From NCBI RefSeq assembly GCF_028735875.1, contig NZ_CP117834.1, forward strand, positions 2,034,001-2,098,000: 64,000 bases of DNA, given 5' to 3'. The notes beneath the pieces are model-generated. The model was not told the origin of the DNA and made no database searches. It saw nothing but the letters and a program-made list of their open reading frames with translations. Below are positions 11,284 through 47,977 of this stretch, piece by piece. How positions within the stretch are numbered: the first letter of the stretch is position 1; each line of letters opens with the position of its first letter. The translations under genes were made by a program, and so were the position numbers. The stretch comes from Shouchella hunanensis (GTDB lineage: Bacteria; Bacillota; Bacilli; Bacillales; Bacillaceae_D).

Positions 11284-12000
11284 TTAACTGTAGTGTCGTT
11301 CAATTTGAAAACTTGCTCGTTCCCCATGGAAATAGGTTTGCGAGTGCTCCGCAATCGTCCCATCTTCTAAGTAAGCGAGCGTTTCCAAGTAAAAGCACGG
11401 TGTCTGTTCTTCAGACGCAAGATGTGTGGCAATAGAAGGATCCATCGTCGTTAGTTGAAGGTGTTCCTCTGTTCGTGCAATACGGACGCTGTAGTGATCT
11501 CTCAGTGTAGAATACAAAGAAACGGAGCATTGTTCCTCTGTAATACCTGGAGCAATGGTCCAAGGAACATAAGCGATCTCATACTGTAAAGGTTTTTCAT
11601 CGACGTAACGAACGCGAATGACTTTTTGAATGGCAGCATTGGCATCCGTGTGTAATAAATGGGACAACTCTTCATCAGCCGGGATAACTTGTAATGACAA
11701 TACCTTAATGAAAGGTTTTTTTCCTTGTGAAGTGACTTGTTCCGTAAAAGAGGTAACCGTTTGGGATAAATTTGTGCGTATTTTCGGCTCCGCGACAAAA
11801 GTACCTTGTCCTTGTCTTCGAACCACATAGCCTTCCTGGCTGAGCTGTTGAAGAGCAGTACGGACAGTGGTGCGACTCACACCATATGTGTCACAAAACT
11901 CAGCTTCAGTCGGAAGTTGTGATTGAGGTGCGTATTCGTTTGCTTCTATCTTTTCAATAATGTTTTCTTTGATTTGCTGGTGCATCGCAGACATTGGCAT
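11284..12000 (-). CDS. GntR/HutC family transcriptional regulator with UTRA domain
   Basis: A 238-residue regulator: N-terminal winged helix with QLPTEAEFCDTYGVSRTTVRTALQQL (recognition helix region, residues about 28-55) and QGQGTFV, then a UTRA ligand domain (about 75-235) ending EHSQTYFHGERASFQIE. HutC-type regulators typically bind a phosphorylated sugar and act locally. It is divergent from the PTS operon by 210 bases and cotranscribed with the ChbG-like gene, so it most likely represses this locus. GGAGG precedes the start; the ATG two codons later is an alternative start with better spacing. Confidence 0.92.
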   Translation of the reverse strand: MPMSAMHQQIKENIIEKIEANEYAPQSQLPTEAEFCDTYGVSRTTVRTALQQLSQEGYVVRRQGQGTFVAEPKIRTNLSQTVTSFTEQVTSQGKKPFIKVLSLQVIPADEELSHLLHTDANAAIQKVIRVRYVDEKPLQYEIAYVPWTIAPGITEEQCSVSLYSTLRDHYSVRIARTEEHLQLTTMDPSIATHLASEEQTPCFYLETLAYLEDGTIAEHSQTYFHGERASFQIERHYS

Positions 12001-12029
12001 GACCCCTCCAGATTCTATACCTTTATTGT

Positions 12030-12058
12030 ATCATAAATGATGGGAAGTTTTCATACAA
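12030..12058 (-). promoter_or_regulatory. Predicted sigma-A promoter of the gntR-chbG operon
   Basis: On the minus strand TTGTAT (12053-12058), a 17-base spacer and TATGAT (12030-12035) match sigma-A boxes. The -10 lies within ATCATaaATGAT, a small dyad that could be an autoregulatory operator. Confidence 0.5.
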
Positions 12059-12151
12059 AGGTAATGACAAAATAGAGAATTACTTTTAAAGTTGTTATTA
12101 CAAATAGTGCTGTACATTTCTTATTTGTTATGATAAATTGTAGTTGTATTA

Positions 12152-12165
12152 AGAAAGCGATTTCA
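12152..12165 (+). promoter_or_regulatory. Candidate cre site (CcpA) in front of the PTS operon
   Basis: AGAAAGCGATTTCA matches the cre consensus TGWAARCGYTWNCW at 12 of 14 positions. It lies next to a possible promoter (TTGTTA 12125-12130, TATTAA 12147-12152), where bound CcpA would block initiation, as expected for a sugar PTS operon. Confidence 0.5.
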
Positions 12166-12210
12166 ATAAACAGTTATACCTACAAATAGAGTAGTAACAG
12201 GAGGGGCTAT

Positions 12211-13527
12211 ATGATGTTGAAGCTTGTCATCATAGGTGGAGGATCTAGCTATACGCCAGAAATTATAGAGGGCATGATTGACCGTCACGATCAATTCCCT
12301 GTGACGGAAATAGCGCTAGTGGATATTGAAAAAGGAAAACAAAAGCTAGACGTCATTTCACGTTTAGCAAAGCGAATGGTCAAAAAATCAGGAAAAGACA
12401 TTACGATTACAGCTAGCCTTGATCGTCGAAAGGCATTAAAACATGCTGACTTCGTGACAAGTCAAATTCGAGTGGGGGGATTGAAAGCCAGAGAAAAAGA
12501 CGAACGAATTCCACTTTCTTACGGTGCTTTAGGGCAGGAAACAAATGGTGCAGGAGGAATCTTTAAAGCTTTGCGAACGATACCGATTTTGTTAGAGGTT
12601 TCAAAGGATATGGCTGAGCTTTGTCCAAATGCATGGCTGATCAACTTCACGAATCCTGCTGGAATGGTAACAGAAGCTTTGTTGAAATATGGTTCTCATA
12701 AACGCGTCATCGGTGTGTGTAACATTCCATTTAATATGCGAACAGGTGTGGCAGAAATTCTAGGCTGCCAGACGGAAGACGTTGAAATTGAATTTATTGG
12801 CTTAAATCATTTTGTATTTGGTCGTCGCGTGCTTGTAAAAGGAGTGGACTATACATCGATTGTAATTGAGCGATTAAAAGATCCGTCAAATCAATATTCA
12901 CCAGCAAATATCGTATCAGAAGGATGGTCGTCTACATTTTTATCTTCTTTTATGATGCTGCCGAATCCTTACCATAGCTATTACTTTAAAGGGGCAGAGA
13001 TGCTAGAGAAAAGTTTGAAAGAGTATTGGGAGAATGGAACACGGGCTGAAGTCGTCCAGCAAGTAGAAGAAGAGCTCTTTAAAAAATATGACGATAAAGA
13101 GTTAACAGAAAAGCCTACCGAACTTGAGAAAAGAGGAGGGGCTTTCTATAGCGATGCTGCTTGTAACGTTATGACAAGTATCTATACAAATAAAGGCGAT
13201 ATTCAAACCGTTAACGTTCAAAATAATGGAACCATATCAGACTTACCGAACGATGCTGTCATTGAAACCAACGCTGTCATGGGGGCAGAGGGACCACGAC
13301 CAATTTCGATAGGAGCGCTTCCACTCTCGATTCGAGGCATCATTCAATTGATGAAGAATATGGAGGAATTGGTCATTGAAGCAGCTGTAAAAGGCGATCG
13401 TGAGCGCCTGTATCAAGCGTTAGTCATCAATCCTCTTGTTCGAGAAGAAACGCTTGCAAACGATTTAATGGAAGAGTTATTGGAAGCACATAAAGAAGAT
13501 TTGCCACAATTTTATCAGCAAGTATAA
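12211..13527 (+). CDS. 6-phospho-beta-glycosidase, glycoside hydrolase family 4
   Basis: A 438-residue GH4 enzyme, which cleaves phosphorylated disaccharides by an NAD- and divalent-metal-dependent redox mechanism. The NAD-binding GGGSSYTPE is at 9-17, the family motif NFTNPAG near 145-151, and the metal ligands are in CNIP (Cys170) and GLNH (His200). LicH/CelF/ChbF type. It is the first gene of an operon with PTS IIC, IIA and IIB. Together with the deacetylase ChbG this suggests intake and splitting of chitobiose or cellobiose 6-phosphate. RBS AGGAGGGG before ATG. Confidence 0.93.
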   Translation: MMLKLVIIGGGSSYTPEIIEGMIDRHDQFPVTEIALVDIEKGKQKLDVISRLAKRMVKKSGKDITITASLDRRKALKHADFVTSQIRVGGLKAREKDERIPLSYGALGQETNGAGGIFKALRTIPILLEVSKDMAELCPNAWLINFTNPAGMVTEALLKYGSHKRVIGVCNIPFNMRTGVAEILGCQTEDVEIEFIGLNHFVFGRRVLVKGVDYTSIVIERLKDPSNQYSPANIVSEGWSSTFLSSFMMLPNPYHSYYFKGAEMLEKSLKEYWENGTRAEVVQQVEEELFKKYDDKELTEKPTELEKRGGAFYSDAACNVMTSIYTNKGDIQTVNVQNNGTISDLPNDAVIETNAVMGAEGPRPISIGALPLSIRGIIQLMKNMEELVIEAAVKGDRERLYQALVINPLVREETLANDLMEELLEAHKEDLPQFYQQV

Positions 13528-36892: not shown

Positions 36893-37077
36893 TTGTAGTC
36901 ACCTTCTATCCGTTTTTATACTAAATAGTTCTACAAAATAGTATTGTTTACCTTGTAACATTACCCTGCCTTGTTCATCCTACGCTTTTAAAGGAAGAAA
37001 AATCCTGCTTATGAGAGGTTTAAACCTCAAGATGAACGGTAAAAGATGCATATGAATGAAACGGAGGAGAATGACAT

Positions 37078-38064
37078 ATGGATCACATAAACGAATTACT
37101 GACTCAAAAAATAGGACTTGGTACAGCACCCCTAGGCAATATGTTCCGGGAAGTGCCAGAAGAAGAAGCCCAAGCGACAATTGAAGCAGCCTGGAATGCA
37201 GGCATTCGTTATTATGACACCGCACCATTTTACGGGGCAGGTCTGGCCGAGCTTCGTTTAGGGAAGTTTCTCTCCAAGCAAAACCGAGATGACTATGTTC
37301 TAAGCACAAAGATCGGTCGCGTCATAGAAGATGAAACAGAGGAAAAAGAAGGTCTCTTTACGAATGGTCGAACGAACAAAATTACAACCGACTATTCGGC
37401 AGAGGCTACGCACACTTCCATTGATCAAAGCATGGAAAGACTGCAAACAAATCGTCTGGACTTTGTGTTTGTGCACGATTTGTCACCTGATTTTCACGGG
37501 GACGAATGGATTGCCAAATTTGAAGAAGCGCGAACAGGTGCATTCCTTGTTCTTGATGACTTAAAGAAACAAGGTGTCATAAAAGGATGGGGTCTCGGTG
37601 TAAACACAACCATCCCAATTGAGCTTGCTCTTCAACTTGAACAAGTGCATCCAACTATTAGTTTACAAGCAACCCAATACACTCTTCTCGATCATGAAGA
37701 CACACTGCGCCGAATGATGCCTGAAGTCGAGCAATCGAATTCAGCGATTGTGGTAGGTGCACCGTATAGCTCAGGTGCCCTTCTTGGCGGAGATCACTAT
37801 AACTACGGTGAGATCCCAGAAGACGTTCAAATAAAAATAAACAAACTAACAGAAGTAGCAGAGTCTCACGGCGTCAGCCTAAAAGCAGCAGCGCTCCAGT
37901 TCTCAACAGCGCATCCAGCTGTCGCTGCGGTTATTCCGGGATCAACGCGACCTGATCGCATTAAGGAAGACCTCGACGCGTTACAAGAGACAATCCCAGA
38001 AGCATTCTGGCAGGAATTAATTGAAAAACAACTCATTTCAGCGGTTGCACCATTGCCGTTGTAA
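37078..38064 (+). CDS. Aldo/keto reductase, D-threo-aldose/pyridoxal dehydrogenase-like
   Basis: A 328-residue AKR. Conserved Asp and Tyr of the catalytic tetrad are in RYYDTAPFYGAG, the Lys in LSTKIGR, the His in FVHDLSPD. The cofactor loop IPGSTRPDRIKEDL is at the C-terminus. The GTAPLGNMFREVPEEEA N-terminus matches the pyridoxal 4-dehydrogenase/D-threo-aldose 1-dehydrogenase branch rather than YajO or IolS. ACGGAGGAG precedes the ATG. It ends with its own terminator and is separate from the riboswitch operon downstream. Confidence 0.9.
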   Translation: MDHINELLTQKIGLGTAPLGNMFREVPEEEAQATIEAAWNAGIRYYDTAPFYGAGLAELRLGKFLSKQNRDDYVLSTKIGRVIEDETEEKEGLFTNGRTNKITTDYSAEATHTSIDQSMERLQTNRLDFVFVHDLSPDFHGDEWIAKFEEARTGAFLVLDDLKKQGVIKGWGLGVNTTIPIELALQLEQVHPTISLQATQYTLLDHEDTLRRMMPEVEQSNSAIVVGAPYSSGALLGGDHYNYGEIPEDVQIKINKLTEVAESHGVSLKAAALQFSTAHPAVAAVIPGSTRPDRIKEDLDALQETIPEAFWQELIEKQLISAVAPLPL

Positions 38065-38067
38065 AGG

Positions 38068-38102
38068 AAAAAGACATTCAGCACACGCTGGATGTCTTTT
38101 TA
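38068..38102 (+). terminator. Rho-independent terminator
   Basis: Stem AAAAAGACAT-CAGC / GCTG-ATGTCTTTTT with one internal mismatch and an ACAC loop. Confidence 0.88.
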
Positions 38103-38390
38103 TCTGTGAAAAGAACGAGTCAAAACAAAATATGAGGTAGTTGGACTGTATCGAACAAATAGAAGTTATTTAGAATGGATCGATATTGATTGTTGCAGTT
38201 ATTATGTGGACTGTTTTATTTCCGTTTGTGAATAATGAGTGAGAGAGGGGAGAAGCATTGGGAATTAATGTATTATTTTAACAAAAAATACGCGAATGGA
38301 TTTCAAAATTCGTAGATTCTTCAATTTATTTATGTTACTCTTTAGATGAAAGGGAATATTATTAATTTTTTATACAATAGAATAACTATT
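38103..38390. other. Intergenic region before the TPP riboswitch
   Basis: About 290 bases; no gene recognised. The promoter of the riboswitch operon must lie here: TATACAATAG near 38371-38378 is a candidate -10 region. Confidence 0.35.
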
Positions 38391-38486
38391 ACTAGGGGTG
38401 CTTTTGTGTTAAAAGCTGAGAAAAGGCTAAAAGTCTTTAACTCTTTGAACCTGATCTGGTTTATACCAGCGGAGGGAAGTGTTGAG
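38391..38486 (+). ncRNA. TPP riboswitch (THI element)
   Basis: Nearly all conserved blocks of the thi box are present in order: ACTAGGGGTGC (P1/P2 side), AAAAGCTGAGA, a variable P3 arm, CTTTGAACCTGATCTGG, TTATACCAGCGGAGGGAAG. The aptamer binds thiamin pyrophosphate. A terminator lies 35-70 bases downstream and then the first gene, so high TPP should stop transcription of the operon. The genes behind it are not thiamin biosynthesis or transport genes (see findings). Confidence 0.96.
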
Positions 38487-38518
38487 CATCAAAATTTTTT
38501 GAATGCTATTATTTGTTA

Positions 38519-38556
38519 ACAAAAAACCACTTCCAATTCTGGAGTGGTTTTTATTT
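38519..38556 (+). terminator. Riboswitch-controlled terminator
   Basis: Stem AAAACCACTTCC / GGAGTGGTTTTT (one bulged base), T-rich tail, located between the TPP aptamer and the first gene. Confidence 0.85.
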
Positions 38557-38576
38557 TATAGGAGGAGTGATAAGGA

Positions 38577-39032
38577 ATGAGTCAAGGTAAAAAAATGTTT
38601 CTAGCGGGTCCCTTTAAAAGTTTGGTTAATTCAAATACAGGCATAATGGGTAAGCATGAAAAACAAAAATTAATAAATTTAATATCCTTTTTTGAAACAA
38701 GGGGTTTTTCAGTCCATAATGCACACAAACGCGAAGGTTGGGGGAAAGATTTCATGACGCCTGAAGAATGTACGGAAATTGATTTCAAAGAAATTAGTGC
38801 ATGTGATCTTTTTGTTGCTTTCCCAGGAGCACCAGCTTCTCCAGGCACGCATATAGAAATTGGTTGGGCTTCCGCTTTAAACAAACCAATTGTTCTATTG
38901 TTAGAAGAAGAAAAAGACTATGCCTTTTTAATAAATGGTTTGGGTACGATCGCAAATGTAACGTTTATCCGTTTTCGAACAGAAGAAGATTATTTCAGTC
39001 AACTTGATAAGGTGTATTTGCAAATCGTTTAG
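38577..39032 (+). CDS. Nucleoside 2-deoxyribosyltransferase-like N-glycosidase (MilB/BcmB type)
   Basis: A 151-residue protein of the nucleoside 2-deoxyribosyltransferase superfamily: MFLAGPFKSLVN at the N-terminus, HKREGWG in the sugar/phosphate region, DLFVAFPGAPASPGTHIEIGWA with catalytic Glu94. MilB and the corresponding protein of the bacimethrin cluster hydrolyse 5-hydroxymethyl-CMP to free 5-hydroxymethylcytosine. First gene behind a TPP riboswitch and followed at 12 bases by a thymidylate-synthase-like gene. RBS GGAGGAG. The precise substrate is inferred from the neighbours. Confidence 0.85.
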   Translation: MSQGKKMFLAGPFKSLVNSNTGIMGKHEKQKLINLISFFETRGFSVHNAHKREGWGKDFMTPEECTEIDFKEISACDLFVAFPGAPASPGTHIEIGWASALNKPIVLLLEEEKDYAFLINGLGTIANVTFIRFRTEEDYFSQLDKVYLQIV

Positions 39033-39044
39033 GAGGTATTAGAT

Positions 39045-40049
39045 ATGCATTTCAATAACTTTCATGAAGCCTATATCGAAACACTATATGAAACCTATCA
39101 CCATCCTCAATTTTTTAACGCACCACGCGGTAACCACAGCCGTGAAAAACTCAATCATCATTTGAGTATTGAAAACCCTGTAGAACGTATTTGTTATTTA
39201 GCAAGTCGAAAGACGAATATTGTATTTAATTTTGCGGAAGTGTTATGGTACTTATCTGCAAATAATGGTGTTGATTTTATTAGCTACTATAATAAGAAAA
39301 TGAGCCAGTATTCAATGAATGGAAAGGTATTGACAGGTACAGCGTATGGACCGAAGATATTTGAATTTGGGAATGCGAAAGTGAATCAATGGAAGCAAAT
39401 AAAAGATTTATTAACCTATGAGGACGTTGATTCAAAACGAGCATTTTTGCAGATCTTTGACGCGACTGAACTTATGGTTCCCGAGAACATTGATGTTTCT
39501 TGTACAGTAGGATTACAATTTTTTGTAAGAGAAAATAAACTATATATGGCGTCTTTTATGCGTGCAAATGATGCTTTCCGTGGAATCGTTAGTGATCTTT
39601 TTTCTTTTACTTTGATTCAAGAATTAATGGCAAGAGAGCTTCAACTAGATTTAGGTACATACTTTCATAATGTCGGTTCCATCCATGTCTATCAATCGGA
39701 TAACGAATGGACTGAAAGGGTACTCCAAGAAGCGAAGTCTAACGTTCAAAAAATGAAGCCACAGTTTCAGTTTCCTACCATGCCTTTAACAGATAATTGG
39801 TCAGCAATTGAAACTGTATTAAACTATGAATCTTTATTAAGACAAGACCTAATTACATTGTCTTGCTCAGATATTGAACAACTGGATATAGCGGATTATT
39901 GGAAACAAGTTCTTTATCTTTTTAGTTTATATCAGTACATCGCTTATAAGCGAACAATTGATTTCTCTTTGTTTCGTCATTTACTACCGGTTTATCAACA
40001 TTTAATGATGAATAAATGGCCCTCGTATTTCAAGACAAAAATAGAATAG
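39045..40049 (+). CDS. Thymidylate-synthase-fold CMP 5-hydroxymethylase (MilA/BcmA type)
   Basis: A 334-residue thymidylate synthase homologue. Landmarks: TGTAYGPKI, Lys131-Arg132 in DSKRAFLQIFDA, the nucleophile Cys153 in DVSCTVGLQFF, MRANDAFRGIVSD, and HNVGSIHVY with His214 and Tyr216. The residue equivalent to Asn177 of E. coli TS, which recognises uracil, is Asp184 here, as in enzymes acting on cytosine nucleotides. It should use methylene-tetrahydrofolate to convert CMP to 5-hydroxymethyl-CMP. Divergent from housekeeping ThyA in the C-terminal 100 residues. AGGAGG site; coupled to the neighbouring N-glycosidase and methyltransferase genes. Confidence 0.87.
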   Translation: MHFNNFHEAYIETLYETYHHPQFFNAPRGNHSREKLNHHLSIENPVERICYLASRKTNIVFNFAEVLWYLSANNGVDFISYYNKKMSQYSMNGKVLTGTAYGPKIFEFGNAKVNQWKQIKDLLTYEDVDSKRAFLQIFDATELMVPENIDVSCTVGLQFFVRENKLYMASFMRANDAFRGIVSDLFSFTLIQELMARELQLDLGTYFHNVGSIHVYQSDNEWTERVLQEAKSNVQKMKPQFQFPTMPLTDNWSAIETVLNYESLLRQDLITLSCSDIEQLDIADYWKQVLYLFSLYQYIAYKRTIDFSLFRHLLPVYQHLMMNKWPSYFKTKIE

Positions 40050-40080
40050 ATCAATTGGTATAGAGGAGGAAGGGTTGCTT

Positions 40081-40851
40081 ATGGGAAAGACTTCTTTTAA
40101 AGAAGGTATGGTTGCGAATCAATTTGATGCGTACAATGACATTCTTGAACAAACGTTAGGGTTTCGTTTTGTTTTCCAAGCCCTTATTGAAAATCCAGAT
40201 AGTAAAACTATACTTGACTATGGGTGTGGACCAGGGAAAGTCGCTTATAGATTGGCTGAGCGTACGGATCTAAATATTATTGCTGTAGACGAATCAAAAG
40301 AAATGCTCGAGATTGCTTTTGAAAAACGAGATCATCCAAAGATTGACTACCGTTTAATTCAAGATGATCGTTTATCTTTCATTAAGGACAACTCAGTGGA
40401 TGGAGCGATTGCCTGTTATGTTTTCATAAATACAGAAAAGAAAGATCGAATTCAGCGCATTATGAAAGAGATTTATCGGGTTCTAAAACCTCAATCCCCT
40501 TTTGTCATTTTAGATACGAATCCTGACTCAACTGGTATCGCGTTTTCAACCTTTCAAAATGGTCTATCAGGAAAAAAGTATAGTTATGGAGAAGCGCGAC
40601 AAGAATGGCTACACATCGAGAATCAAGATGACCTGATTTTAAATGATTTTCACTGGCCAAAGTCAATGTATCAAGAACTTCTTAAAAAAGTAGGGTTTCA
40701 GGAAATCGAACAAATCGAACCAACATTGCGAGATATTCCCGCTGAGGAATTACAGATGATTGAACAAAAGCATACATTTAACCAATGGAAAAATGAATGG
40801 GACTCCCCTCCCTTCGTTCTGTATCGATCAATAAAACCAGCACAAGAGTAA
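40081..40851 (+). CDS. SAM-dependent class I methyltransferase of the TPP-riboswitch operon
   Basis: A 256-residue methyltransferase (ATG 40081; an in-frame TTG at 40075 lies too close to GGAGG). SAM motif I LDYGCGPGKVAYRLAER with acidic IIAVDES, motif II SVDGAIACYVFIN, and motif III YRVLKPQSPFVILD. In the bacimethrin pathway a methyltransferase forms the 2-methoxy group of the pyrimidine, and this gene is the only methyltransferase in the operon, so it is the candidate for that step. It follows the hydroxymethylase by 31 bases. Substrate is inferred. Confidence 0.85.
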   Translation: MGKTSFKEGMVANQFDAYNDILEQTLGFRFVFQALIENPDSKTILDYGCGPGKVAYRLAERTDLNIIAVDESKEMLEIAFEKRDHPKIDYRLIQDDRLSFIKDNSVDGAIACYVFINTEKKDRIQRIMKEIYRVLKPQSPFVILDTNPDSTGIAFSTFQNGLSGKKYSYGEARQEWLHIENQDDLILNDFHWPKSMYQELLKKVGFQEIEQIEPTLRDIPAEELQMIEQKHTFNQWKNEWDSPPFVLYRSIKPAQE

Positions 40852-40889
40852 ATCGTGAAGTTTCTTAGCTGTTCAAAGGAGAGGATCGT

Positions 40890-42131
40890 ATGATTGTTGA
40901 TGAATTTGATGTATTTTTCTTTGATTTAGATGGAGTGATATATATAGGGTCCGAACCACTTCCAGAAGCAGTAGAAACACTGGAACGTCTTCGGCGGGAT
41001 CGAAAGATGATTCGTTTTCTAACAAATGATCCCTGTACAACACGAAAAAAAACAGTAAGTCGGTTAAATCGTTTAGGAATAGAGGCAAGTGACGAAGAAG
41101 TGATTACATCAGGTTGGGCGACTGCGCAATATTTACAGAAAGAAAAGATTAGAACGGCACTTGTTTTAGGCGATGAACATTTAAAATGGGAGTGTCAACA
41201 GGTTGGTATTACGATTGACGTCCAAGATACCGTTGATGCCGTTGTTGTCGGGTGGGATGGTGATGTGTCTTTTCATGACATCCAATTAGCAGCGCGGTGC
41301 ATTCATAAAGGTGCAACATTTGTTGCGACCAATCCAGATAGAACCTATCCGACTCCGGAAGGTCCGTTACCTGCAGTTGGAGCTATGGTAGAAGCCATTC
41401 GCGTATCAACAGAGAAGAGGCCTATCATTGTAGGAAAACCATACCCTTATATGTTTGAAAAAGCGATGGCCGATTTCTCTTCATCCGATAGAATAGTAAT
41501 GGTTGGTGATAATCCATATACTGACGTGTTAGGAGCACATCAGTCAGGGATACCAACCATTTTAATATCAGATCAAGAGACAACTAAATTTCCGTCTGCT
41601 AGAGATTTCCGAAATCCTGATGTGACGATACCGAATTTAAAATGTTTATTTGATCGTAAGATTGAAATTAAGCATTGGATTTCTCCTTCCTTTTCTTGGC
41701 CAGATCATATAAAAGCGGGAGTAGCGGGCATTATTTTTGATGAGAAGCAGCGCGTTCTCCTCATGAAGCGTGCCGATAACGGTTTATGGGGAATTCCTTC
41801 AGGTCATGTCGAACCAGGAGAAACTGTTGAAGAGGCGATCATTAGAGAAATTAGGGAAGAAACGGGTTTACAAGTTAAAGTGAGTCGATTAATTGGTGTT
41901 TATTCTGACCCAGCTTCACAAATCTTTGAATACCCCAACGGAAAGGTGAGTCACTTTATTACAAATTGTTTTGAATGTGAAGTTGTGGGAGGGAATTTAA
42001 TTAAGGGAAATGAAGAAACATTAGATGTGCGTTACTTTGATTGCAATCAGTTACCTGAAGATCTTTTGCTGATGCATCCAAGATGGCTTGAAGATGCATT
42101 AGAAGAAAGACAGCTGTCTTATATACGTTAA
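40890..42131 (+). CDS. HAD-IIA (NagD-like) phosphatase fused to a Nudix hydrolase
   Basis: A 413-residue fusion. Residues 1-255 are a HAD-IIA phosphatase: DLDGVIYIG with Asp12 and Asp14, FLTNDPCT, GKPYPYMFEKA, MVGDNPYTDVLGA. Residues 270-410 are a Nudix domain: box G305-x5-E311-x7-REIREETGL with all catalytic Glu present. The combination could remove phosphates from nucleotide intermediates or from toxic thiamin analogue phosphates. It is the last gene of the operon, 38 bases after the methyltransferase, with GGAGAGG before ATG. Such a fusion is not, to my knowledge, part of the described bacimethrin cluster. Function within the pathway is inferred. Confidence 0.85.
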   Translation: MIVDEFDVFFFDLDGVIYIGSEPLPEAVETLERLRRDRKMIRFLTNDPCTTRKKTVSRLNRLGIEASDEEVITSGWATAQYLQKEKIRTALVLGDEHLKWECQQVGITIDVQDTVDAVVVGWDGDVSFHDIQLAARCIHKGATFVATNPDRTYPTPEGPLPAVGAMVEAIRVSTEKRPIIVGKPYPYMFEKAMADFSSSDRIVMVGDNPYTDVLGAHQSGIPTILISDQETTKFPSARDFRNPDVTIPNLKCLFDRKIEIKHWISPSFSWPDHIKAGVAGIIFDEKQRVLLMKRADNGLWGIPSGHVEPGETVEEAIIREIREETGLQVKVSRLIGVYSDPASQIFEYPNGKVSHFITNCFECEVVGGNLIKGNEETLDVRYFDCNQLPEDLLLMHPRWLEDALEERQLSYIR

Positions 42132-42441
42132 GAAACGCAAAGCTTTGGGATGCTAGAAATTGGACTGGATAGTGATAGAATATCCTAAGGTTAATTAAGT
42201 GAACTAAGTAGGGATATCTTTCATTATCAAACAAAAGTTGCCGATTTTTAGTCAAGCATAACAAACGAGATTTGTAATGGATCGAATGACACACATTCTT
42301 ATGAAGTACCTTTTGGGAAAATACAGTGTTGATAAAACACGCCATCAACAGGCGTGTTTTTTCAATGATTTAACGTTTTCTCGTTCATTTAAAAGCGGAG
42401 TAGGACTGGTTCGCTGGACAACAAACAAGTTAAGCTAACTC
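42132..42441. other. Intergenic region with terminator of the riboswitch operon
   Basis: About 310 bases between the HAD-Nudix gene and the beta-lactamase gene. It contains one clear terminator (42334-42362) and no recognised gene. Confidence 0.4.
42334..42362 (+). terminator. Rho-independent terminator
   Basis: Perfect stem AAAACACGCC / GGCGTGTTTT, seven-base loop, followed by TT. Confidence 0.88.
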
Positions 42442-43350
42442 TTAAGGCGTTTGGCTTGCTCCATACTCGAAATCGTCCATCAGCATGCGCAAGGCAGCTT
42501 CAGTCGCTTCGGCAATGAGCGCATCATCGGACTCAGCATCTGCTTGTTCCTTGCTTGATAACACAGCGATTACAATTGGATCTTCATCTGGTGGCCAAAT
42601 AATGCCGATGTCGTTTCGTGTTCCGTAGGAAGCAGAGCCGGTTTTATCGCCGACAAGCCAACCTTCAGGAACACCGGAACGGATGAGTGCATCGCCTGTG
42701 GTGTTATGAATCAGCCAGTCGTTTAACAGCGTTTGTTTTTCTTCGTCAAGTGCATCTCCAAGTGAAAAGGCATAGAGGCTTTCCGCAAGAGCCTTAGCTG
42801 TGCTTGTATCGCGTGTTTCTCCAGGTTTAACATCATTTAGTTCCGTCTCCATTCGTTCTGGTTCCGTCACTTCATCTCCGATTTCTCGGAGTGCCTCTTT
42901 AAACCCTGATGGACCGCCAATTTCATTGAAAATAAGATTAGCCGCTGTATTGTCGCTGTAGCGAATCGAGGCATCGCTTATTTCGTGTAGACTCATACCC
43001 GTCTCCACATGCTGCTCAGTAATCGGACTATATGTAACAAGGTCAGCTTCGGAAAACAGGATCTGCGTGTCTAACTCGTCAAGGGAAAGCTGTTGTAACA
43101 GCACGCCAACCGCCAACGCTTTGTGGGTCGAAGCATAGGCAAAGCGTTCATCCTCGTTGTATGCGATGGTCTGTCCATTACCCGTATCAAGTGCATACAC
43201 GCCTAAGCGTGCATCATAGTGATCTTCAAGCACGGAAAATACTGCTGCACTGTTCTCGTCATCTGGTTGCTGTTGCTCGGTTGTCTCAGGTGTTCCGCAG
43301 GCAGCTAATACGGTTAATGTAAAAATGGCTCCATATCTCTTCAATGTCAA
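42442..43350 (-). CDS. Class A beta-lactamase, lipoprotein
   Basis: A 302-residue class A serine beta-lactamase exported as a lipoprotein (lipobox LAAC, Cys18). Active-site motifs: S74-T-H-K77, the SDN loop S132-D-N134, the E-x-x-L-N motif at Glu168-Asn172 and K236-T-G. It opens penicillins and some cephalosporins. PenP/BCL-1-like enzymes occur in Bacillus relatives. It is divergent from blaR1-blaI with two BlaI dyads in between, so it is induced by beta-lactams. Confidence 0.94.
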   Translation of the reverse strand: MTLKRYGAIFTLTVLAACGTPETTEQQQPDDENSAAVFSVLEDHYDARLGVYALDTGNGQTIAYNEDERFAYASTHKALAVGVLLQQLSLDELDTQILFSEADLVTYSPITEQHVETGMSLHEISDASIRYSDNTAANLIFNEIGGPSGFKEALREIGDEVTEPERMETELNDVKPGETRDTSTAKALAESLYAFSLGDALDEEKQTLLNDWLIHNTTGDALIRSGVPEGWLVGDKTGSASYGTRNDIGIIWPPDEDPIVIAVLSSKEQADAESDDALIAEATEAALRMLMDDFEYGASQTP

Positions 43351-43368
43351 TCAACCTTTCGTTATTAA

Positions 43369-43401
43369 GATTACAACTGTAGTCAATATTACAAATGTAA
43401 T
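43369..43401. promoter_or_regulatory. Two BlaI operator dyads
   Basis: GATTACAACTGTAGTC (43369-43384) and ATTACAAATGTAAT (43388-43401) carry the TACA-N2-TGTA core bound by BlaI/MecI repressors. They lie between the divergent beta-lactamase and blaR1 genes and should control both. Confidence 0.85.
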
Positions 43402-43474
43402 CTAATTCTGTCAAACGATTTTTATTCGTGGTATGATAAACGAAAAACGAAACAAGTGGAGGAGCGTATAACGA

Positions 43475-45232
43475 ATGCTAGTGACACTTCTAGTGCTAAC
43501 GTTGCTCATTAGCGCACTTTTTCTCGTTCGTCAGGGTATGAAACTAGTGCGACTACCGGCCATTTGGTTGGATCGTTTCTGGTCTCTTCTCTTTGTAGTA
43601 CTTTTGCTCCCATTTCTTCCCCTTCAAGCCGTTCCTTTTTTTGCTGGAGAGACGAGGGGAGTAGAGCAACGTCCTCAACTTCCTGGAGAAGCGCAACTGA
43701 CAGAAGCAACAAACATGACGATTTCTGACTTTAGCGTGTCTGTTACTAGGTTTGATTTAGGCTGGCTTGAGTCTGGTTTATTCGTGGTTTGGCTTGGAGG
43801 AATCGGATTTGGGTTGTGTCTTATTTTCCAATCCCTCTTTAAGCTAAAAACAATAATTGCTAAGGCGAGAGCTGTAAAGGACTCACGGTTAACGATCGCT
43901 TATGACGCCTGTGTCAAGGAGCTAGGACTTAAAAAGAAACCACGCCTATTGGAGTCAGGCTCAATCGAGTCACCCGTAACATGCGGAATTCTCCGTCCTT
44001 ATCTCCTTGTTCCGGAAGGTTTGTATAATCTTTTTTCTACCGATGAGATTCGTTACATGTTCCTGCATGAACTAAAGCATCATCAGCTGCACCATCCTCG
44101 GATAAATGCGACCGCGCTCTTACTCCAAATGGTTTATTGGTTTCACCCGCTCGTCTGGCTCGCACGAAAAAAGATGGTAATGGACCGAGAGCTTGCCTGT
44201 GACGCAGCTGTTATTGAAACAATCGGCATGTGCGAGCGCAAAGCTTACGGGAGGACGCTGCTTCAGTTCATTGAGAAAAAACAATCCCATTCGTCGCTTG
44301 AACTCGGTGTTGGCGGGACGAAGAAACAGATTGAGACACGCATTTATTCTCTTATTCACTACCGCAGTTCTTCTAAAAAAGATACGGTCAAAGGTAGTCT
44401 TATTTACACGCTCGTAGTGTTGTTCATTGTCCTGCAGACGCCATGGCTTGCTCTAGGAGAGGTAGAGGAGCAAAGATATTCATTTGATCACTCAAATGCC
44501 AGCTATGAGGAGCTGTCTTCCTTTTTTGCTGATCATGATGGAAGCTTTGTGCTCTACAGCGCTAGAGAGAATCATTATTTCATTCATAATCGAGCCGGAA
44601 GTGAGCAACGCTATTCACCGAACTCCACATTTAAGATTTATAGTGCCTTGATCGGGCTTGAAGAAGGCATCGTTCAGCCAGATACCGTCCTCGCTTGGGA
44701 CGGGACAGCACATGATTACCCTGAATGGAACCAGCAACAAACCCTCAATAGCGCGATGCAGTATTCGGTTAACTGGTATTTTGAAAAAATAGAAGCAGAC
44801 ATGTCACTTAACCAGATGATGACTTATATCAACGAGTTGAATTACGGCAACAAATCGATTGAGGGGCCGACGCCAGTTTGGCTCGAATCTTCGTTAACCA
44901 TTTCTCCGGTTGAGCAAGTTGATTTGCTACATCGGTTGTATAGCAAAGAACTTCCGTTTCAAGGGGAATCCGTCATGGCGGTTAAAGACGCGCTCTTGCT
45001 TGAGCAAACGGGTGAAACCGCATTTTATGGCAAAACAGGGACTGGTGTGGTGAATGAACGGGCTGTGAACGGTTGGTTTGTGGGTTTTGTGGAAACGACA
45101 GACGATACGCTGTTTTTTGCCACGCATCTAGCTGGTGATGAAGAGGCCACGGGACAAAGTGCGGCTGATATAACCCGAGCCATTTTAGTAGATAAAGGAA
45201 TTCTAACAGGGGGGATTGGAGTAAATGAGTAA
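43475..45232 (+). CDS. blaR1: BlaR1-type beta-lactam sensor-transducer
   Basis: A 585-residue membrane protein. Residues 1-330 form an M56 peptidase domain with transmembrane helices and the zinc motif H198-E-L-K-H202 plus Glu239 in RELACD. Residues 335-585 form an extracellular class D-like sensor with S384-T-F-K387, S-V-N in QYSVNWYFEK, and K-T-G in FYGKTGTG. Beta-lactam acylation of Ser384 activates the zinc protease, which leads to loss of BlaI. GTGGAGGAGCG precedes the ATG; it overlaps blaI by eight bases. Confidence 0.94.
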   Translation: MLVTLLVLTLLISALFLVRQGMKLVRLPAIWLDRFWSLLFVVLLLPFLPLQAVPFFAGETRGVEQRPQLPGEAQLTEATNMTISDFSVSVTRFDLGWLESGLFVVWLGGIGFGLCLIFQSLFKLKTIIAKARAVKDSRLTIAYDACVKELGLKKKPRLLESGSIESPVTCGILRPYLLVPEGLYNLFSTDEIRYMFLHELKHHQLHHPRINATALLLQMVYWFHPLVWLARKKMVMDRELACDAAVIETIGMCERKAYGRTLLQFIEKKQSHSSLELGVGGTKKQIETRIYSLIHYRSSSKKDTVKGSLIYTLVVLFIVLQTPWLALGEVEEQRYSFDHSNASYEELSSFFADHDGSFVLYSARENHYFIHNRAGSEQRYSPNSTFKIYSALIGLEEGIVQPDTVLAWDGTAHDYPEWNQQQTLNSAMQYSVNWYFEKIEADMSLNQMMTYINELNYGNKSIEGPTPVWLESSLTISPVEQVDLLHRLYSKELPFQGESVMAVKDALLLEQTGETAFYGKTGTGVVNERAVNGWFVGFVETTDDTLFFATHLAGDEEATGQSAADITRAILVDKGILTGGIGVNE

Positions 45233-45602
45233 AAACATGCCGAGCATTTCAGATGCAGAGTGGGAAGTGATGAAGGTACTCTGGAAAAATCCGCCGAAAA
45301 GTGCACGTCAAGTCGTGACAGAGCTCAAGGCGCTCGTTGACTGGAAGCCCAAAACAATCCGCACGCATCTTGACCGTTTAACCAAAAAAGAGATTATCAA
45401 AGTGAATCGAGATGAGCGACTTTACACGTTTACACCACTTTTTTCAGAAGATGAGTGTAAGCGGGCAGAAACCAATTCGTTTATTAAACGTGTTCATGAC
45501 GGCACAACAAAATCGATGATGCTACAATTCATTGAAGACGAAACCCTCACAAAAGAAGATCTACAGGATCTTCGATCCTTGCTTGATGAAAAGCTAGATT
45601 AA
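45225..45602 (+). CDS. blaI: BlaI/MecI/CopY family repressor
   Basis: A 125-residue winged-helix repressor: ISDAEWEVMKVLWKNPPKSARQVVTEL and TIRTHLDRLTKKEIIKV cover the DNA-binding domain (residues about 4-70); the C-terminal helices contain the cleavage/dimer region. It binds the TACA/TGTA dyads at 43369-43401 and silences the beta-lactamase and its own operon. It overlaps blaR1 by eight bases and is therefore translationally coupled. Confidence 0.94.
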   Translation: MSKNMPSISDAEWEVMKVLWKNPPKSARQVVTELKALVDWKPKTIRTHLDRLTKKEIIKVNRDERLYTFTPLFSEDECKRAETNSFIKRVHDGTTKSMMLQFIEDETLTKEDLQDLRSLLDEKLD

Positions 45603-45713
45603 AGAAAGAGCTGCAAAGGTAGAAGCATCTGCCTTTGCTTTTACCAATGGAGGATAGCACCAATCCATCCGCGTCAATTTTATAGCGTAAAGACGGTAAA
45701 GTGTATGAATACG

Positions 45714-45745
45714 TAAAAAAAACCAACCAATCGGTTGGTATCAAT
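45714..45745 (-). terminator. Rho-independent terminator (minus strand)
   Basis: On the minus strand ACCAACC-GATT-GGTTGGT followed by eight T, downstream of the small membrane protein gene at 45755. Confidence 0.85.
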
Positions 45746-45754
45746 CGTACTCAT

Positions 45755-45955
45755 TTATTTCTCTAAAAATTTCTTACCTCTGTTTTTGTCAACGGCTAAA
45801 CGCAATAAAACGAAAAGGACACCAACACCAATCCCAATAACGGTATAAGCCATAATGTTTCCAACTGTATACTCATCAGAAACTAGAAAACCAACACCGG
45901 TAAATACAATAGCAAATGCAACAAGTAATACGGTGATTTTCACACCAGCGTTCAT
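45755..45955 (-). CDS. Small two-span membrane protein, 66 aa
   Basis: The frame is open upstream to 46117, but GGAAGGGTG before the ATG at 45955 and the hydrophobic N-terminus (MNAGVKITVLLVAFAIVFTG) point to that start. Second helix in YTVIGIGVGVLFVLLRLAV, ending in DKNRGKKFLEK. Typical small Bacillus membrane protein; no family recognised. Its own terminator follows. Confidence 0.65.
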   Translation of the reverse strand: MNAGVKITVLLVAFAIVFTGVGFLVSDEYTVGNIMAYTVIGIGVGVLFVLLRLAVDKNRGKKFLEK

Positions 45956-46013
45956 CTGGAACACCCTTCCATTTGTAACCTTATAATGATAGATTCCCAA
46001 TAGTCGCAAAATG

Positions 46014-46594: not shown

Positions 46595-46954
46595 ATGGCA
46601 ACTATTTATCGATCTTACCGACGTCCTGATCCAGTAAGACCAGGACAAACGAATACCATTAGTACTGCTATTACTTACGGCGTTTCTTCGCACAACAACA
46701 TTCCTGTTTCAGTATACGATTGCAAATACTGTTACGCAACTTGCGCAAGCGTAAATATACGATTGCAACGAATGGTAACATCTGCGGTGTATGAAACTGT
46801 CGGTTTGAGGTTAAACCGACGGGTTTGCGTTGCGCAGTTTTCTACACGAGTCGATGAGACGTTCACAAATGTACGAAAATCAAGCGCACCTATGCGTGTT
46901 CTCTGGACGATAGATGGTACTAACGAAACATCTCCAATTTTTTATCACGCTTAA
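46595..46954 (+). CDS. Unknown Cys-motif protein, copy A (119 aa)
   Basis: A soluble, basic 119-residue protein: MATIYRSYRRPDPVRPG at the N-terminus, a central ISTAITYGVSSHNNIPVSVY, Cys43-x2-Cys46-x3-Cys50, RLQRMVTSAVYETVGLRLNRR, a further Cys in RVCVAQF, and a conserved C-terminus (FTNVRKSSAPMRVLW, NETSPIFYHA). No signal peptide. The strand-rich pattern suggests a small beta-fold. AAAAGGAGCAAGCG precedes the ATG. Its nearest relative is copy B 1,020 bases downstream, and both are followed by an 82-residue acidic protein. I do not recognise the family. Confidence 0.75.
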   Translation: MATIYRSYRRPDPVRPGQTNTISTAITYGVSSHNNIPVSVYDCKYCYATCASVNIRLQRMVTSAVYETVGLRLNRRVCVAQFSTRVDETFTNVRKSSAPMRVLWTIDGTNETSPIFYHA

Positions 46955-47614: not shown

Positions 47615-47977
47615 ATGGCAACTATTTATCGAACTTATCAACGCCGAATGCATGGAGGTGTTGAATTAAAACCTATTGAAACAGCTATTACCTATGCAAT
47701 TTCCTCACACAACAATATACCAGTTTCAGTGTACAATTGCGGACCATGTTACGCTTCTTGTGGAACCGTAGATATTCGATTACAACGTATGGTGACGTCT
47801 GCAGTTTATGAAACAGTCGGAACAAGGTTAAACAGAAGGTATGGAGACACACGTATTTGCCCTGCTAGAAGTGTTGAAGAAACCTTCACAAATGTACGAA
47901 AATCAAGCGCACCTATGCGCGTTCTCTGGACGTTAGAAGGTATCAACGAAACATCTCCAACTTTTTATCACGCTTAA
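47615..47977 (+). CDS. Unknown Cys-motif protein, copy B (120 aa)
   Basis: Paralogue of copy A with intact frame. The N-terminus differs (MATIYRTYQRRMHGG), the Cys motif is Cys42-GP-Cys45-YAS-Cys49, and the segment RLQRMVTSAVYETVG plus the C-terminus (FTNVRKSSAPMRVLW, NETSPTFYHA) is conserved. The fourth Cys is shifted (RICPARS). The conserved set of C-x2-C-x3-C, aromatic residues and the SSAPMRVLW end likely defines the family. AAAAGGAGTAAGCG before ATG. Function unknown. Confidence 0.75.
   Translation: MATIYRTYQRRMHGGVELKPIETAITYAISSHNNIPVSVYNCGPCYASCGTVDIRLQRMVTSAVYETVGTRLNRRYGDTRICPARSVEETFTNVRKSSAPMRVLWTLEGINETSPTFYHA

Follow-up and report, generated by a model that had tools for sequence, protein, structure and literature searches.

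The 64,000-nucleotide stretch of the Shouchella hunanensis genome analysed here (contig NZ_CP117834.1, positions 2,034,001 to 2,098,000 of the forward strand; hereafter the window) carries a thiamin pyrophosphate (TPP) riboswitch followed by four closely packed genes, which very probably make the antivitamin bacimethrin and protect the cell that makes it. We regard it as rather probable that this unit is a stand-alone bacimethrin cassette of a mobile kind, under TPP control, in which a fused HAD-Nudix hydrolase guards the maker. In the mechanism proposed, low TPP would let transcription pass the riboswitch, a hydroxymethylase would convert cytidine monophosphate (CMP) into 5-hydroxymethyl-CMP (hmCMP), a glycosidase would release free 5-hydroxymethylcytosine, and a methyltransferase would turn the latter into bacimethrin (4-amino-5-hydroxymethyl-2-methoxypyrimidine). 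Thiamin-short neighbours would import bacimethrin as a mimic of hydroxymethylpyrimidine (HMP) and form toxic 2'-methoxythiamin pyrophosphate; in the maker, the Nudix domain would cleave the methoxy pyrophosphate forms and the HAD domain then the monophosphate, and bacimethrin would exit unactivated. The unit would spread among Bacillota partly as the passenger of a Tn3-family transposon. The chemistry, and longer Paenibacillus operons with the four genes, are known; what is new, as far as our searches reach, is the stand-alone unit in its minimal form, the carriage of the unit by a transposon in relatives, and its lopsided decay.

The riboswitch aptamer (THI element) occupies 38384..38494 on the plus strand and matches the covariance model RF00059 over its full length (model positions 1-105 of 105), scoring 78.4 bits (gathering score 54.3; E-value 8.6e-14); it is the sole Rfam match at the gathering threshold within the window. 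Behind it lies an intrinsic terminator (38522..38552, +) of 12 pairs followed by a T-run, whose 5' arm CCACTTCC is complementary to the segment GGAAGTG in the 3'-terminal part of the aptamer, and a pairing of the two would form an antiterminator alternative to the terminator, leading to expression at low TPP. Since a terminator scan of the region gave 2 candidate sites against an expected 2.8, the terminator call rests on its place and its conservation, an equivalent hairpin being present in 11 of 11 folded leaders. Four tight open reading frames (ORFs) follow the terminator on the same strand (+), the last ending at 42131. An initial annotation had described, at 38391..42131, a complete thi-box and, in tight order, genes for a MilB-like N-glycosidase, a hydroxymethylase resembling thymidylate synthase (TS), a methyltransferase and a HAD-Nudix protein; the coordinates and gene list are correct, the full-length aptamer agrees with the first part of that description, and the ORFs with their family matches agree with the second. 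Its remark that none of the usual thiamin genes stands behind the riboswitch is also correct. The locus lies on the single 4.06-Mb contig of the genome, which rules out a plasmid-borne cluster here.

The first gene (38577..39032, +) encodes a putative hmCMP N-glycosidase of the MilB/BcmB type (PF05014), a nucleoside deoxyribosyltransferase-like protein whose closest solved structure is the CMP N-glycosidase 4jen (E 1.5e-50), with MilB itself (4jem) matching at E 3.5e-49. It contains the sequence FLAGPFK, which fits the MilB/BcmB motif F-L-(G/A)-(G/A)-P-F-(R/K). Lysine or arginine at the end of this motif marks the hydroxymethylase-linked relatives of MilB and recognises the hydroxymethyl group of hmCMP, and BcmB has lysine there (PMC4081090). 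The motif Phe and Lys, Asp78, Ser97, Gly99 and the catalytic Glu103 are present in all 16 aligned glycosidases, that of the window included; the position of MilB Glu62 is occupied by Gln in 5 of the 16, a count that depends on the alignment. The second gene (39045..40049, +) would encode a CMP 5-hydroxymethylase of the MilA/BcmA type within the TS superfamily (PF00303), since among solved structures it matches MilA (5jnh) at E 1.5e-94, as against 5.7e-14 for the best true TS. The MilA residues Glu68, Lys133, Cys155, Ala176, Asp186, His216 and Tyr218 are all found in 16 of 16 aligned hydroxymethylases, including the one discussed here, and Lys133, Ala176 and Asp186 have been tied to the preference for ribose and cytosine (PMC5175136). 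The gene is not the housekeeping TS: the ordinary enzyme is encoded separately at G000:C1:449558-450346, scoring 439.5 bits against 69 for the TS-like protein of the cassette. The third gene, starting at ATG 40081 (alternatively at TTG 40075) and ending at 40851 (+), encodes a class I S-adenosylmethionine (SAM)-dependent methyltransferase that matches several SAM methyltransferase models (Methyltransf_25, E 6.4e-17) and is 77-89% identical to those of three related cassettes (L013, L016 and L019); it is presumed to be the O2-methyltransferase of 5-hydroxymethylcytosine. Glycosidase, hydroxymethylase and methyltransferase genes thus lie side by side, the arrangement by which a bacimethrin cluster was recognised.

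Synthesis of bacimethrin from CMP was reportedly established by Cooper, O'Leary and Begley in 2014 with the operon of Clostridium botulinum A ATCC 19397. The published route runs from CMP through hmCMP and 5-hydroxymethylcytosine to bacimethrin (PMC12345177). Like the present unit, the C. botulinum operon has the glycosidase, the TS-like hydroxymethylase and the methyltransferase, with a route that starts from CMP (PMC5627462, PMC12345177), but its description also names a thiaminase I, a pyrimidine kinase and a putative ABC transporter; the present unit has none of the three and has the HAD-Nudix fusion. Thiaminase I (TIGR04541, BcmE) gave no match across the whole S. hunanensis genome, so the cluster is not of the thiaminase I type, nor is such an enzyme encoded elsewhere in the genome. 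A published precedent is the probable bacimethrin operon of Paenibacillus thiaminolyticus, P. apiarius and strain C454, in which glycosidase, TS, methyltransferase and YzgD follow in the same order and a putative TPP riboswitch is described (PMC5627462); there thiM-thiD-thiE come first, and thiaminase I and a HAD hydrolase are encoded after the shared genes, whereas the present unit has a riboswitch and four genes only. Together with the MilA/MilB-type residues and the structure matches, this precedent (PMC5627462) lends good support to the bacimethrin-like product suggested by the initial annotation. Also comparable are the putative bacimethrin clusters of Microcystis, proposed antivitamin clusters that include a TS and, in some strains, a glycosyltransferase; their TS is described as larger and of low homology, and they carry ThiD2 and an ABC transporter, unlike the present unit (PMC12345177).

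A scan of 84,980 genomes with a three-row hydroxymethylase alignment, the reach of which is limited by two short peptide patterns, returned 22 loci, of which 12 carry the label Bacillota and 10 the label Actinomycetota. Twenty Bacillota loci were examined, namely the 12 of the scan, the window, a Priestia megaterium plasmid, and the genomes G009, G003, G744, G554, G541 and G782; gene order is kept across genera, and a TPP aptamer stands directly upstream in 13 of the 20 (12 of 19 without the window). At the gathering threshold none was found near L023, L024, G554 and G782, nor near G541, where the contig ends about 0.4 kb upstream. The same is true of the L027 and L028 stretches, which are Paenibacillus thiaminase-type operons whose putative riboswitch has been placed before thiM (PMC5627462); in L027 the stretch reaches about 5 kb beyond the thiM-like gene on its upstream side. 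In strains of Bacillus velezensis, B. swezeyi and B. haynesii (L025, L026 and L029) a ThiD-type gene, matching PF08543 in L025, is inserted between the methyltransferase and HAD-Nudix genes. The contig of L023 is labelled Roseburia sp. 1XD42-34; its cassette is 80% identical to that of Virgibacillus chiguensis and the label may be wrong. Downstream of the Actinokineospora globicatena cluster (L033), an ORF at 11524-12315 starts like TenA (thiaminase II). Few genomes carry the cassette: among 100 near genomes a search for the glycosidase gave 3 with a match, the window's own and one weak partial match included, and among 398 genomes of the phylum it gave 2, the window's own and one with a 33% match that has no other cassette gene nearby.

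Mobility, on which the initial annotation was silent, is added by the present analysis. The P. megaterium plasmid pPmC-129-1 (L013) has genes for a Tn3-family transposase (PF01526, E 1.4e-142) and for a tyrosine recombinase ahead of the riboswitch and the four cassette genes; a pair of 37-bp inverted repeats with one mismatch, spaced at 7.8 kb, encloses them all. A contig of Pallidibacillus pasinlerensis (L022) carries the same element (99.88% identical across 7791 bp), and here a perfect target duplication of 5 bp, TTTTA, lies at the two ends; in L013 and L022 the repeats show 0 and 1 mismatch, and the flanks of L013, TACAA and TTCAA, are alike in four of five bases. A diverged element in Paenibacillus sp. 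FSL H7-0326 (L019), 81% identical over the shared 7.7 kb, has repeats with 1 and 4 mismatches (4 in the right one) lying 13.4 kb apart, and a perfect duplication, AAGAA. Transposase, inverted repeats and 5-bp duplications in these three relatives are hallmarks of Tn3 transposition; single repeats are present in Cytobacillus firmus (L018, left only) and Bacillus sp. FJAT-47783 (L021, right only). Carriage on a transposon separates units of the window's type from the Paenibacillus thiaminase I operons as described (PMC5627462). Within S. hunanensis the locus is variable: the stretch from about 38263 to 42206 is absent from the same-species genome G494, which matches the window at 36976-38262 and 42207-46000 with 14 bases in between; a HAD-Nudix search of that genome at 1e-40 gave no match. 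The edges of the window copy show a direct repeat of 6 bp, AATTAA, which is too short to be meaningful. A literature search joining bacimethrin and transposon found nothing beyond an E. coli hemolysin study.

The fourth gene (40890..42131, +) encodes a HAD-IIA phosphatase fused to a Nudix hydrolase (YzgD type; Hydrolase_6/Hydrolase_like and NUDIX), with both sets of catalytic motifs complete. It is presumed to be a self-immunity enzyme, with the Nudix domain presumed to be the active half, and a role in immunity appears more likely than a biosynthetic step. The Nudix enzyme NudJ (YmfB) of E. coli is, to our knowledge, neither fused to a HAD domain nor encoded in any biosynthetic cluster. It confers bacimethrin resistance and hydrolyses the pyrophosphates of methoxy-HMP (MeO-HMP-PP) and methoxythiamin (MeO-TPP) (PMC5158307), and YzgD has already been proposed as a possible protection of Paenibacillus against toxic thiamin analogues (PMC5627462). 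Searches for literature joining bacimethrin with self-resistance, or Cof, HMP-PP and hydrolase together, returned none.

The fate of broken cassettes bears on this role. Among the 20 Bacillota loci, 15 have intact trios of glycosidase, hydroxymethylase and methyltransferase genes and five have broken ones; a Nudix domain accompanies all 15 intact trios, fused to HAD in 14 and separate in one (G782), and the HAD-Nudix fusion is intact in four of the five broken trios (G003, G744, G554 and L020), twice directly behind the riboswitch. In the congener G003, whose sequence around the site is 97% identical, deletion has removed the whole hydroxymethylase gene and the greater part of the glycosidase and methyltransferase genes, with the riboswitch and a 98% identical HAD-Nudix gene retained; the latter has a dN of 0.0083 and a dS of 0.037, its 18 differences in 1239 bases being too few to prove purifying selection, and the neighbouring aldo/keto reductase gene has values of 0.0093 and 0.108. 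The genome G744, of another family, has lost, in a different deletion, what lies between glycosidase residue 32 and methyltransferase residue 117 but retains the riboswitch and HAD-Nudix gene, and G554 has a third, different deletion with HAD-Nudix intact and no riboswitch found nearby. HAD-Nudix is likewise intact in L020, where a frameshift, which may be a sequencing error, interrupts the methyltransferase gene; for L018 no HAD-Nudix gene was found, the hydroxymethylase gene carries an in-frame stop and the methyltransferase gene is truncated. These patterns support the view that the fusion tends to persist after the trio has broken down, which is what an immunity gene would be expected to do. 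In a reverse test, each protein was searched against an apparently identical draw of 398 genomes of the class: the fusion turned up in 7 genomes (E 1e-90), the hydroxymethylase in 3 (E 1e-50) and the glycosidase in 4 (E 1e-8), the window's own and one fragment among them. All three genomes with a full hydroxymethylase (the window's own, G541 and G782) have a Nudix domain, fused or separate, and five of the seven fusion-bearing genomes have no hydroxymethylase, both counts being small.

Several observations weigh against the reading of the unit as a mobile cassette with its own immunity gene. No Tn3 repeat within 8 mismatches was found in the window, so the present copy shows no Tn3 ends, and no transposase was recognised by eye among the ORFs of 34-48 kb; the searched stretches of G009 (L016) and of Planococcus (L020) likewise gave no repeat within 8 mismatches. 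Against solved structures the methyltransferase has weak matches only (best 4.7e-7), and its substrate therefore rests on context; the four-gene unit contains no exporter. That the decayed G744 and G554 have the fusion was built into the search, since these genomes, like G541, were found with HAD-Nudix as query; G003 was found by its flanks, and L018 and L020 by their hydroxymethylase genes. The intact trio of G782 (L104 7888-12854) has no fusion at all, so that a fusion beside each intact trio is ruled out; a divergent separate gene, 63% identical to the Nudix half, adjoins its glycosidase gene instead, and its trio is followed by thiaminase I-like and ThiD-like genes, as read from translations.

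A tentative alternative, to which we assign a clear minority share, accepts that bacimethrin is made and takes the fusion for a biosynthetic or housekeeping enzyme, such as a pyridoxal phosphatase or a cleaner of damaged thiamin. The YzgD of P. thiaminolyticus, according to the account given of work by Tirrell and colleagues, acts on pyridoxal phosphate, which it dephosphorylates, and on various nucleotide diphosphates, HMP phosphate (HMP-P) not being among the substrates tested (PMC5627462). Fusions without a trio also occur in seven Bacillota genomes. Four are congeners (G004, G008, G010 and G011) with 70-71% identity and no glycosidase, and the absence of a TPP riboswitch in 12 kb around each disposes of the idea that these are riboswitch-controlled remnants; the other three (G650, G527 and G531) have 49-78% identity and neither glycosidase (E 1e-8) nor hydroxymethylase (E 1e-50) genome-wide, and in G650 a Lys replaces a Nudix-box Glu. 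Five records of haloarchaeal plasmids hold fusions 47-49% identical over most of their length, their neighbours having been viewed in two. Solo and haloarchaeal fusions imply a wider role for the family, perhaps general clean-up, and in two of the ten actinobacterial loci, L033 and L034, a gene adjoining the trio matches the HAD half alone. In a tree of 23 HAD-Nudix proteins, in which several forks are open, cassette, decayed and solo rows are mixed and cluster no more strongly than shuffled labels, which shows repeated change without fixing its direction. Against a biosynthetic role stand the route from CMP, which requires no phosphatase or Nudix step as published (PMC12345177), the Nudix half that goes with every intact trio examined, and the fusion left intact in most of the broken ones. 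The Staphylococcus haemolyticus plasmid pSH_7b_2 (L097) encodes a separate Nudix protein that shares 58% identity with the Nudix half; its gene lies beside bioB and between IS257 copies.

Another product derived from 5-hydroxymethylcytosine, mildiomycin-like or a modified base, with TPP control incidental, is improbable. The first two enzymes are indeed close in kind to mildiomycin MilB and MilA, sharing enzyme families, the first two steps and specificity residues (PMC5175136, PMC4081090), but mildiomycin belongs to another product branch, and neither mildiomycin pathway genes nor other nucleoside-antibiotic genes were recognised in the unit. Its methyltransferase is a constant member, the TPP riboswitch recurs upstream of most of the Bacillota loci, ThiD has been added to the operon in three Bacillus cassettes, and the glycosidase is closest to 4jen and has Lys where BcmB does (PMC4081090). 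Less probable still is that the product serves thiamin salvage by the host and harms no one else. Seven further TPP riboswitches, of eight genome-wide, precede two tenA genes, thiC, thiD, ykoE, ylmB and thiE-thiS-thiG, as read from translations. The host is thus very likely able to synthesise thiamin for itself, and the cassette belongs to its thiamin regulon; the Paenibacillus version, moreover, shares an operon with thiM, thiD and thiE (PMC5627462). Salvage is countered by thiC, through which HMP would be made de novo, and by the expected 2-methoxy pyrimidine, a kind of compound that gives rise to an inhibitory cofactor (PMC7093009, PMC5627462). The reading of a TPP-controlled bacimethrin cassette with an immunity gene is accordingly the one we prefer.

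Outside the cassette, directly downstream at 42442-45602, lie a gene for a beta-lactamase-like class A protein (minus strand) and then BlaR1-like and BlaI-like genes (plus strand), all read from translations; they are not counted with the unit because they are also present, at 98%, in G494 and G003. Further on, two similar small proteins of 119 and 120 residues, both starting MATIYR, are encoded nearly in tandem at 46595-46954 and 47615-47977.

Bacimethrin has been obtained from Bacillus megaterium and Streptomyces albus (PMC7093009). It is about an even matter whether an antivitamin weapon under a TPP riboswitch and its immunity gene form one Tn3-family transposable unit that spreads in Bacillota and would explain the bacimethrin of P. 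megaterium, the losers of the costly trio keeping riboswitch and immunity gene as protected non-producers; that the original producing strain carried the transposon element is a guess. Vitamin-sensing RNA, antivitamin antibiotics and spread by transposons are usually separate topics and are linked here. The cassette is a definite candidate for the genetic basis of bacimethrin in P. megaterium and offers a presumed self-immunity enzyme that can be tested, and the occurrence in one genus of putative producer, protected non-producer and empty-site genotypes may allow tests of the effects that vitamin antagonists have on communities.

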